Source: a virus
IMG/VR virus record: IMGVR_UViG_3300027977_000119
Coordinates: 1 to 32,292 of that record
Length of the DNA: 32,292 bases
Reading direction: 5' to 3' (one strand)
The notes beneath the pieces were generated by a model. The model searched no databases. It was given only the letters and a program-made list of their open reading frames with translations, and was not told the origin of the DNA. Below, piece after piece: positions 20,147 to 22,624 of this stretch. How positions within the stretch are numbered: position 1 is the stretch's first letter; each line of letters begins with the position of its first letter. Position numbers and translations under genes: made by a program.

Positions 20147-20403
20147 AGGGGAAGTTTTGCCCGTGAGGTGCGTTTCATAAAGTTCAAACTAATCGCATCA
20201 TACTTGAGTTTTTCTTTGAGTGGTTTTGAAATCAGTTTTGTGACCGACTCCACTTCAAGATTATTAATTTCACAATAATGACAGATTGCGTCAATGTAAT
20301 TAAAGTTTTCCTCAATCACAATTTTCTCTATCTCTAGAGCAAACTTTGAGGGAGTCAGAAACTTATTTTCTATAACTTGTTCTAGTTCTTTATTGGGTTC
20401 CAT
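20143..20403 (-). CDS. 33: Late transcription coactivator gp33
   Basis: An 86-residue protein. An upstream in-frame start exists (20502), but it would overlap the nuclease gene by more than 100 bp. The ATG at 20401-20403 (MEPNKELEQVIENKFLTPSK) gives a 14-bp overlap and a size close to T4 gp33 (112). The core FALEIEKIVIEENFNYIDAI, HYCEINNLEVE and hydrophobic C-terminus parallel T4 gp33 (IEKMVEEFGMSYLEA and so on). In T4 gp33 bridges RNA polymerase and the sliding clamp to activate late promoters, matching the many late boxes here. It is coupled to gp59 by ATGA. Confidence 0.8.
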   Translation of the reverse strand: MEPNKELEQVIENKFLTPSKFALEIEKIVIEENFNYIDAICHYCEINNLEVESVTKLISKPLKEKLKYDAISLNFMKRTSRAKLPL

Positions 20404-21070
20404 ATTCTGCGAGTTTGTCTCTAACAAATGTTCTAATATATTCGGTAAGTAGTTTGAGATACTTTGATTTGTCTCTTTCTTCATAAACAACGCATTCTCC
20501 ATTTTCGCAAGACATAATGATTACAAGTTTTTTAATTGGAATACCAGTGAGTTCATAGAACATTGCACCGTATGCCATACACTGAACAAAATAGTGGTCT
20601 ATCCATTCACGGGGTTTGGGCTTTTTAGAAGTCTTAAAGTCAATTATTGCTAATTCACCATTATGCTCTGCAATTGCATCCACAGTTCCTGCAATACCTA
20701 ATTGCTTACTATATAGGGAACCTTCAAGAGCGTAGATATTATTTATACGATTGAGTTCCGTTTTCGCAATCTTAAAAAGAAAATCCGGAAGCGGCGGAAC
20801 AGGCGGGAGATCCTTATTATAAAGATAATTTTCCACGAGAGAATGCATATCCGTGCCACGATTCGTAGCCGCTTTAGTAATTTTCTGTGCTTCCTCTTCA
20901 CCGACCTTTTTACGCCACTTGACGAATATTTCACGATTAAAATGACTCGTAACAGAAGTGATTGAAACTAGTTTAAGAAGTTCTTCATCATCAGGCACTT
21001 TATAATACCTGACTCCATCGATTGTCTCACGCTCCAACTTTGGGAGTTCAATATCAATATGATTAAACAT
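20390..21070 (-). CDS. PD-(D/E)XK exonuclease (Cas4/RecB-like, MGME1-like)
   Basis: A 226-residue protein. Motifs in order: SITSVTSHF (35-44), RGTDMHSLVE with H76, GIAGTVDAIAEHNGELAIIDFKTSKK (125-150) with D131, D144 and K146, and HYFVQCMAYGAM with Q163. This is the full catalytic signature of the PD-(D/E)XK exonucleases, with the H-D-DxK-Q pattern. Such genes sit beside gp33 and gp59 in related cyanophages. A role in recombination or host DNA processing is inferred. It follows the homing endonuclease by a 1-bp TAATG overlap, so it may be translated through coupling. Confidence 0.85.
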   Translation of the reverse strand: MFNHIDIELPKLERETIDGVRYYKVPDDEELLKLVSITSVTSHFNREIFVKWRKKVGEEEAQKITKAATNRGTDMHSLVENYLYNKDLPPVPPLPDFLFKIAKTELNRINNIYALEGSLYSKQLGIAGTVDAIAEHNGELAIIDFKTSKKPKPREWIDHYFVQCMAYGAMFYELTGIPIKKLVIIMSCENGECVVYEERDKSKYLKLLTEYIRTFVRDKLAEYGTQ

Positions 21071-21795
21071 TAAGACCTCACTCTCCCTTTATTATAACCC
21101 ATAGGTATAGATTCGTCAATTGTTATAAGTTTTTCTTCAATACCATTATTAATCCAAAATCTTTTAGGGCGTTTTTTTGCCCTTTCTTTTAATTTTTCAA
21201 TGGTTTCGGGCGAATGCTTTTTGCCAAACATAGGGTTATTTTCACCAGAAATGTCGTGATGATTTTCACTGATTTTTTTTCTGGTTTCTTCAGAAAGAAT
21301 TTTGCCAAGATTTAATTGGCGAATTTTTTCTCTTGTTCCTTCACTTACTTCCCTACCAACTAACCAAGGCTTTGGTTTCCCTTTTGAGGAATCACTCATT
21401 TTTTTCCTTGTTTCTTCACTATGTTTTTTACCATACATACCAACTTTTTTATCTTTATGAAGTTGTTTTACTCGTTCAGAACATTCTTGACGATATTCTT
21501 CACTCGCTTCCCAACCAAAAATACCATCCCCACCATCAGTTAAGTTATATCCACTAGGGACCTTTGTATTATATTGTTTTATGTAATATTGTTCAAGTTC
21601 ATATGCTCTTTCGGCACTTTCAACTTCTTCAACTAATTGAATAAAAAACTTTTCTTGTCCATATTTTTGAATTGCTTCTGTTAGAATGAATCCCCTTTTA
21701 ATATGTTGTGAAAATCTTTCCTCAAGGGAAAATTTAGTTATACCAACATATTGTTTTTTATTTTCAATATTAGTAATTAAATATACTTTATACAT
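21070..21795 (-). CDS. GIY-YIG homing endonuclease with NUMOD3 repeats
   Basis: A 241-residue protein. Residues 1-95 form a GIY-YIG-type nuclease domain: KVYLITN followed by YVGIT, SLEERFSQHI, an AIQKYG/EKF block and a YELEQYYIKQYNT block ending GYNLTDGG. Residues 115-215 hold several NUMOD3-type DNA-binding repeats: YGKKHSEETRKKM, LSEETRKKISE and GENNPMFGKKHSPET. This is the layout of free-standing Seg-type endonucleases of T4-like phages. It separates phoH from the exonuclease gene and seems an insertion. Its ATG lies directly next to a 16-bp inverted repeat with a late promoter in the loop (see that entry). No good ribosome binding site is visible. Confidence 0.9.
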   Translation of the reverse strand: MYKVYLITNIENKKQYVGITKFSLEERFSQHIKRGFILTEAIQKYGQEKFFIQLVEEVESAERAYELEQYYIKQYNTKVPSGYNLTDGGDGIFGWEASEEYRQECSERVKQLHKDKKVGMYGKKHSEETRKKMSDSSKGKPKPWLVGREVSEGTREKIRQLNLGKILSEETRKKISENHHDISGENNPMFGKKHSPETIEKLKERAKKRPKRFWINNGIEEKLITIDESIPMGYNKGRVRS

Positions 21796-21854
21796 TGTCT
21801 AGTTCGTAAAGGTTTTAATTATTTATATAAATCTATTTCTTTACGAACTAGACA
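21796..21854 (-). promoter_or_regulatory. Hairpin directly before the homing endonuclease start, with a late promoter in the loop
   Basis: The arms TGTCTAGTTCGTAAAG (21796-21811) and CTTTACGAACTAGACA (21839-21854) are perfect 16-bp complements with a 27-nt loop. On the coding strand the second arm ends exactly before the ATG (21795-21793). No U-tract follows, so a terminator is unlikely. A transcript from upstream would fold and hide the start region. Transcripts started from the loop promoter would lack the first arm. Confidence 0.85.
21820..21827 (-). promoter_or_regulatory. Perfect T4 late promoter TATAAATA inside the hairpin loop
   Basis: TATAAATA on the minus strand, identical to the T4 late consensus. 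A start 6 nt downstream would fall at about 21814, between loop and second arm, and make an RNA without the first arm of the hairpin. Confidence 0.65.
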
Positions 21855-21859
21855 TATAA

Positions 21860-22624
21860 TTATAAAGTAATGCCTAGTTCATACTTTGCCAATAGATACT
21901 CCTTGACCAAAGATGAACGGACAATATCGTCTATTCCAAACTCAATTATATCAAAAGATGGCATTTTTCTAATAATATTCATAAAATCAATAATACCATT
22001 TCTTTCACTTGTTTTAATTAAATCTGACTGTGTAGCATCCCCACAGAAACATATTCTACTATTTTCACCAACACGAGTAATAATAGAATCTAATTCGTGA
22101 CCATTTAAGTTAGAGAATTCATCAACTATGATAATAGAGTTGTCTAATGTAGTTCCCCTAATAAATGAAGTGCTCCAAAACTTAACTGTTTCCTGCGATT
22201 TAAGATTTCCATAGAGCATCTCAAAATCAGCGTCAGAAGGCATTTGGAACATATACTTCACCATATTCTTATAAGGAATCTGGTAAATATCTGCCTTATC
22301 GTCGTGACTTCCGGGCAAGAATCCAATCTCTCTTGTAGCGACTAAAGAACGAACAAGATAAATCTTCTCATAAGGAGTTCTTTCGTCCAGAACATCTACC
22401 AGAGCATTATAGAGTGTAATAAAGGTCTTACCAGTTCCAGCACAACCATAAGCAATAATATGCTTACCGTCTGCATAAGAGTCAAACAGACGCTTTTGAT
22501 TGTCTGTAAGAGGTTCTATATCAACCAAATACTCTGAACTTAATGGTTTCTTTCTCTTTGCCTGTTTTGCGGTAAGACCAACGCCGATTGGTTGGTCCGA
22601 ATTGCTTCTCTTTCTTCTTGCCAT
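21860..22624 (-). CDS. phoH: PhoH-like P-loop ATPase
   Basis: A 254-residue protein. A basic N-terminus (MARRKRS) precedes the Walker A loop GCAGTGKT (60-67). Walker B is IIIVDE (164-169) and GDATQS (195-200) follows. EPLTDNQKRLFDSY and VRSLVATREIGFLPGS are family blocks. PhoH-like ATPases are widespread in marine phages and are linked to phosphate stress in bacteria, although the activity in phage is unsettled. The ATG is 1 bp after the stop of the small upstream gene. The 3' end contains TGAACTAGGCA, similar to the adjoining hairpin arm. It is probably driven from the late box at 22899. Confidence 0.95.
   Translation of the reverse strand: MARRKRSNSDQPIGVGLTAKQAKRKKPLSSEYLVDIEPLTDNQKRLFDSYADGKHIIAYGCAGTGKTFITLYNALVDVLDERTPYEKIYLVRSLVATREIGFLPGSHDDKADIYQIPYKNMVKYMFQMPSDADFEMLYGNLKSQETVKFWSTSFIRGTTLDNSIIIVDEFSNLNGHELDSIITRVGENSRICFCGDATQSDLIKTSERNGIIDFMNIIRKMPSFDIIEFGIDDIVRSSLVKEYLLAKYELGITL

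Follow-up and report, generated by a model that had tools for sequence, protein, structure and literature searches.

Homing endonuclease genes of phages are in several cases kept silent by the structure of their own messages. I-TevI, I-TevII, I-TevIII and segB of T4 and mobE of Aeh1 are locked by RNA structure and freed by promoters located at that structure (PMC2988022, PMC3014915). In one of the closest known cases, I-TevI, a GIY-YIG enzyme encoded in the td intron, a hairpin hides the start of the gene on read-through RNA, while the late RNA lacks the 5' side of the hairpin (PMC2988022). The late promoter box of I-TevI, AATAAATA, forms part of the 5' arm, where its partner is the start region, and a Shine-Dalgarno sequence is sequestered. 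T4 segB is a free-standing GIY-YIG gene with a hairpin over its start and a late-type box; its CATAAATA belongs to the 5' arm and is base-paired to UAUUUAUG, which includes the start codon, and the gene sits in a tRNA neighbourhood. Aeh1 mobE is described as free-standing, with a sequestered ribosome site and the same arrangement of promoter and structure, but it encodes an HNH rather than a GIY-YIG enzyme and sits in a split ribonucleotide reductase gene (PMC2988022, PMC3014915). On read-through RNA the T4 late genes e, soc and 49 are likewise shut off by hairpins, and late promoters free gene e (PMC3014915); these are resident phage genes, not mobile endonucleases. In the literature searched, most subscription papers lying outside its scope, we found no account of this kind of control in a cyanophage.

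In the present study we analyse a hairpin that precedes an endonuclease gene in a 32,292-nt stretch of cyanophage DNA (IMG/VR record IMGVR_UViG_3300027977_000119, hereafter the window). We consider it very likely that the hairpin is a translation lock on a mobile homing-endonuclease cassette and that a promoter in its loop is the key. The initial annotation had suggested that this would be an independent or conserved case of the I-TevI logic in a free-standing gene. The sequence supports the same logic in a cyanophage, but its use by a free-standing gene is not new, as segB and mobE show (PMC2988022). What is new is the cyanophage setting, the position of the promoter in the loop instead of an arm, and an unrelated second family that combines a stem, a terminator and TATAAATA.

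The insert between phoH and the exonuclease gene

The features of the locus, all on the minus strand, are as follows.

21860-22624, minus: phoH (PF02562), upstream neighbour and source of read-through RNA
21861-21869, minus: predicted outer helix, 5' side, in the phoH stop region; 9-bp complement to 21784-21792
21839-21854, minus: hairpin 5' arm, the first arm reached by RNA from phoH; half of a perfect 16-bp inverted repeat
21812-21838, minus: hairpin loop, 27 nt; promoter-distal half variable in relatives, TATAAATA half constant
21820-21827, minus: TATAAATA, box of the T4 late promoter type; its motif class precedes virion genes
21814, minus: predicted late transcription start, placed by T4 spacing; leader of ~19 nt
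21796-21811, minus: hairpin 3' arm, covering the ribosome landing region; last base adjoins the start codon
21784-21792, minus: predicted outer helix, 3' side, in endonuclease codons 2-4; encloses the AUG
21070-21795, minus: free-standing homing endonuclease gene, GIY-YIG catalytic domain plus NUMOD3 repeats, 241 aa
21091-21119, minus: sigma-70-like promoter TTGACG-17-TATAAT (11/12 match), in the last endonuclease codons and facing the exonuclease gene
20390-21070, minus: PD-(D/E)XK exonuclease gene, downstream neighbour

Along the minus strand, phoH (22624-21860) is followed in turn by the hairpin (21854-21796), the endonuclease (21795-21070, ATG at 21795-21793), the exonuclease (21070-20390), gp33, gp59, DUF1825 and gp32; the next gene upstream of the endonuclease is phoH, as first annotated. 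The endonuclease reading frame has Pfam matches above cut-off to GIY-YIG (PF01541, E 4e-12) and NUMOD3 (PF07460, E 2e-25), and its protein matches PHROG homing endonuclease families. Phage S-SRM01, ~90% identical to the window in the matched flanks, has an empty site at which the phoH stop codon overlaps the exonuclease ATG, and neither the endonuclease nor the hairpin is present. The gene is thus an intronless, Seg-type insertion between phoH and the exonuclease gene, and the absence of the hairpin from the empty site indicates that hairpin and gene form one insert and arrived together. About 28 non-redundant viral relatives were gathered by protein, alignment and DNA-pattern scans of IMG/VR. 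The endonuclease lies between phoH and the exonuclease gene wherever the contig extends far enough, and phoH is the upstream neighbour in every relative whose contig extends there. No isolate carrying this gene family was found in the phage collection. In P-SSM2 the junction instead holds two related hypothetical genes (L004:1762-3142; T4-GC 323), and it looks like a repeated insertion site. The junction genes of P-SSM2 and S-SCSM1 were considered as endonucleases and rejected, being unlike endonucleases by inspection and without such a hairpin.

The insert also carries the sigma-70-like promoter at its 3' end, which the empty site of S-SRM01 lacks. Both boxes are kept in full-length relatives, and TATAAT is kept in L020, L103, L110 and L111 despite their differing protein ends (in L020 it is non-coding). 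The exonuclease gene, which the insert displaced, may regain a promoter from it.

The hairpin itself is as initially described: the two arms are complementary at 16 of 16 positions, and the arm nearer the gene ends one base before the ATG. The computed folding energy of its region is -29.8 kcal/mol (z -7.1), a value reached by none of 200 shuffles. Among the perfect stems of the window whose loops are no longer than 60 nt, this one of 16 bp is the longest; across 100 dinucleotide shuffles of the window, stems of at least 15 bp did not occur and stems of at least 14 bp averaged 0.01. The 20 nt preceding the AUG contain no GGAG-like Shine-Dalgarno motif; what the 3' arm and the fold cover is the landing region and the AUG. 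A 14-nt repeat between the phoH end and the arm was set aside because it is missing from L008. No Rfam family was found at the hairpin site. Elsewhere in the window, the gap between 23869 and 24329 holds a glutamine riboswitch (RF01739, 24144-24203, minus; 40.6 bits, above the Rfam gathering threshold) and a strong terminator-like stem (24025-24002, minus).

Stem-loops 3' of genes often protect 3' ends, and this one lies 5 nt past the phoH stop codon, so its role could be to stabilise, process or terminate phoH messages instead of locking the endonuclease. We regard this as highly unlikely. An intrinsic terminator was rejected, as no T run follows either arm and the site is absent from the list produced by the terminator scan. 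Moreover, the phoH gene of S-SRM01, which has no endonuclease behind it, has no such hairpin; where the hairpin occurs, it goes with the endonuclease and the start codon of that gene, and a conserved promoter box accompanies it.

The predicted loop promoter and the computed folding of the two transcripts

The box TATAAATA lies in the 27-nt loop at 21827-21820, oriented toward the endonuclease as first reported, and 24 nt from its ATG. T4 I-TevI (23 nt, against 24 nt here) and segB have nearly the same box-to-AUG spacing. As an octamer, TATAAATA is not rarer than chance in the AT-rich window (2 seen, 3.2 expected); position and conservation carry the weight, not frequency. The related heptamer NATAAATA, the published late motif of S-PM2 (PMC2984593), occurs at 12 sites in the window, 9 of which are 13-32 nt ahead of a start codon on the same strand, and several of the genes so preceded encode tail fibre or baseplate proteins. 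The best score among 20 other 7-mers of the same composition was 5/27. To judge from this placement, NATAAATA behaves as a late promoter motif in the window, and the TATAAATA/NATAAATA box, at a set distance before late genes, is of the T4 (gp55-dependent) late type. Transcription would start near 21814, ~6 nt past TATAAATA, if the established geometry of T4 late promoters applies.

Could TATAAATA be a chance match in AT-rich sequence, with the endonuclease expressed only from upstream promoters? Its chance-level frequency would allow this, but the box is exact in 26 of 27 non-redundant relatives beside a loop half that varies, its spacing to the start is fixed, and its motif class marks the starts of virion genes in the window. 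A chance match is hardly credible.

The initial annotation had proposed that RNA from phoH would be folded over the start region and that RNA started in the loop would lack one arm, and computed folding gives the difference expected from this. Opening the start region was calculated to cost 12.5-17.7 kcal/mol on read-through RNA against 2.2-3.4 kcal/mol on loop-started RNA, the ranges reflecting the amount of flanking sequence folded; in like-for-like folds the gain on starting in the loop was 9-10 kcal/mol. The same calculation gave gains of 10.0 kcal/mol for T4 I-TevI and 12.0 kcal/mol for segB; the window has eight further genes with a late motif, and their gains were 0.1-4.7 kcal/mol. The region from -12 to +3 was computed to be 9% unpaired in read-through RNA and 69% unpaired in loop-started RNA. 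The locus thus combines a computed start-covering structure on read-through RNA with a loop promoter, recognised from sequence only, whose RNA lacks the 5' strand.

In the mechanism that we propose, read-through RNA from phoH would hold both arms, fold, and hide the landing region and start codon, so that little endonuclease is made. Once the late sigma factor system gp55/gp33 acts, polymerase would start in the loop; the resulting RNA could not form the hairpin because the 5' arm is absent, and would be translated. We infer the block to translation, its timing and the homing activity of the endonuclease. The gene had been suggested to be silenced early and expressed late. The off/on difference holds in the computed folds, but another late-type motif lies upstream of the phoH unit (22899, minus), and read-through RNA made from it late in infection would contain the hairpin as well. 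The proposed switch would therefore be between own start and read-through, not strictly between early and late.

Conservation, compensatory change and exceptional relatives

The window element differs from I-TevI in that its box lies in the loop, its stem has a sequence of its own, and there is no clear Shine-Dalgarno motif. With the promoter box in the stem, as in I-TevI and segB, promoter and lock constrain each other. With the box in the loop, the stem is free to drift by paired changes and can give clean evolutionary evidence for a lock. The initial annotation had pointed to related genes as the place to look for such changes, and across 27 non-redundant copies the arms are retained with compensatory changes and the box is conserved.

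The same hairpin is present in all relatives but one (L110), with TATAAATA in its loop in every case except L018, which has GATAAACA; the endonucleases of the stem-bearing relatives are 58-88% identical. In an alignment of 14 sequences, 94% of stem cells are paired, and sliding one arm by 1-3 bases lowers this share to 28-41%. Changes on both sides are seen in seven pairs, and the covariation score exceeds those of all 500 shuffles. The stem cells of the 27 copies comprise 347 Watson-Crick, 27 G-U, 10 A-C and 16 other combinations. Parsimony on a coding-sequence tree gave 28 double changes from one paired state to another, a count that recombination could inflate. The TATAAATA half of the loop stays constant while the other half drifts, the box-to-start spacing is 21-30 nt in all relatives, and in almost all of them the inverted repeat ends within a few nucleotides of the start codon. 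A covariance model, applied to 302 kb, matched the element a single time at each locus and at no other place; as the element is a palindrome, the matches fall on either strand, and their alignment mixes sense and antisense.

Paired changes can arise when a quasi-palindrome undergoes template-switch repair, in which one arm serves as the template for the other, and the arms could be kept complementary in this way during replication, with no selection on function. Arms swapped as a block by recombination may likewise have inflated the count of double changes. We consider this explanation most improbable, as one-sided changes leaving G-U pairs are common, and selection is needed to account for the position at the start codon, the retention of TATAAATA, the replacement of the stem in L110 and the unrelated stems of the second family described below.

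A further alternative places the function of the inverted repeat in the DNA: it would be a palindromic operator at which the endonuclease or another protein binds over the late promoter and represses it. Pairing evidence alone cannot separate an RNA stem from a DNA palindrome, because the excess of G-U over A-C is modest (27 against 10 cells; 12 against 8 gains). I-TevI, and probably I-TevII and I-TevIII, autorepress at sites over their own promoters (PMC2988022), and the core TAGTTCGT/ACGAACTA is conserved beyond the needs of pairing down to L111, at 58% protein identity. On the other hand, an operator does not require the repeat to end within a few nucleotides of the start codon, and L110 has swapped its stem sequence yet retains a stem that covers the start. 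We also searched the phoH-exonuclease region of four phages lacking the gene for a homing-site-like operator; the best hairpin-like matches were no better than shuffles, and this candidate was dropped. An operator in place of an RNA lock is in our view unlikely, but the repeat may have an operator role in addition to the lock, because TAGTTCGT is kept more than pairing demands.

Several relatives depart from the common form. L110 has lost the old 3' arm, and of the old 5' arm a remnant survives. Just ahead of its ATG stands a new stem, AAACGATTATAAA/TTTATAATCGTTT, with TATAAATA now within the 5' arm, and L110 is the sole relative here built like T4 segB; this fold improves only modestly on shuffles (z -1.6). 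In L018 (2936-3003), where GATAAACA replaces TATAAATA, the stem is still largely paired, and the promoter has possibly been lost. L013 has ATA at the start position, and the computed locks of L019 and L105 are weak (gains of 1.6 and 3.7 kcal/mol). Among distant GIY-YIG relatives (30-43% identity), most lack the hairpin and box. An unrelated GIY-YIG gene (L043:2960-3003) has AGGAGG and the AUG inside a 16-bp hairpin whose 5' arm has TATAAATA at its base.

A second endonuclease family and the proposed regulation of cyanophage homing endonucleases

The isolate S-SRM01 carries another NUMOD3 endonuclease, of an unrelated family, between DUF1825 and gp32. Ahead of the gene, a 13-bp stem surrounds both a terminator-like hairpin and TATAAATA. 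Its relatives (L184-L223) have three different stem sequences, each pairing over 13-14 bp (with a mismatch in a few), as compared by script and by eye and not by a formal covariation count. The box, TATAAATA or, in L212, CCTAAATA, lies 24-27 nt before the ATG, and the computed gain is 5.4-14.5 kcal/mol. The device accompanies the gene to a second junction, between the exonuclease gene and gp33 (L212, L217, L223), and is absent in L203, L209 and L211. In this family (L087:1968-2056, L184-L223) a short CCTGA/TCAGG or CCTAAG/CTTAGG hairpin overlaps the 5' arm and could compete with the outer stem. Two unrelated cyanophage endonuclease families thus probably use a lock made of a hairpin and a late promoter.

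The psbA endonuclease F-CphI of cyanophage S-PM2 is also free-standing, with TATAAATA 23 nt before its ATG. It differs from the window gene in having a terminator-like hairpin before TATAAATA and no stem over the start, and its computed gain is -1.1 kcal/mol. In S-PM2 (L226:969-1028) the terminator-like hairpin is followed directly by TATAAATA, an off/on arrangement without a lock stem.

A broader reading, for and against which we find the balance about even, is that cyanophage homing endonucleases are self-contained regulatory cassettes. Each would comprise a start-covering stem and a late promoter free in the loop, joined in one family by a terminator and in the window family by a 3' sigma-70-like promoter directed at the displaced gene. 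The lock would have arisen separately in the two unrelated families, with a replaceable stem and a persisting logic.

The hairpin with its predicted loop promoter would be a compact natural off/on switch. It extends the I-TevI type of logic to cyanophages, and apparently also to an unrelated second endonuclease family, and it supports the view that selfish endonucleases generally need late, self-limited expression to persist.
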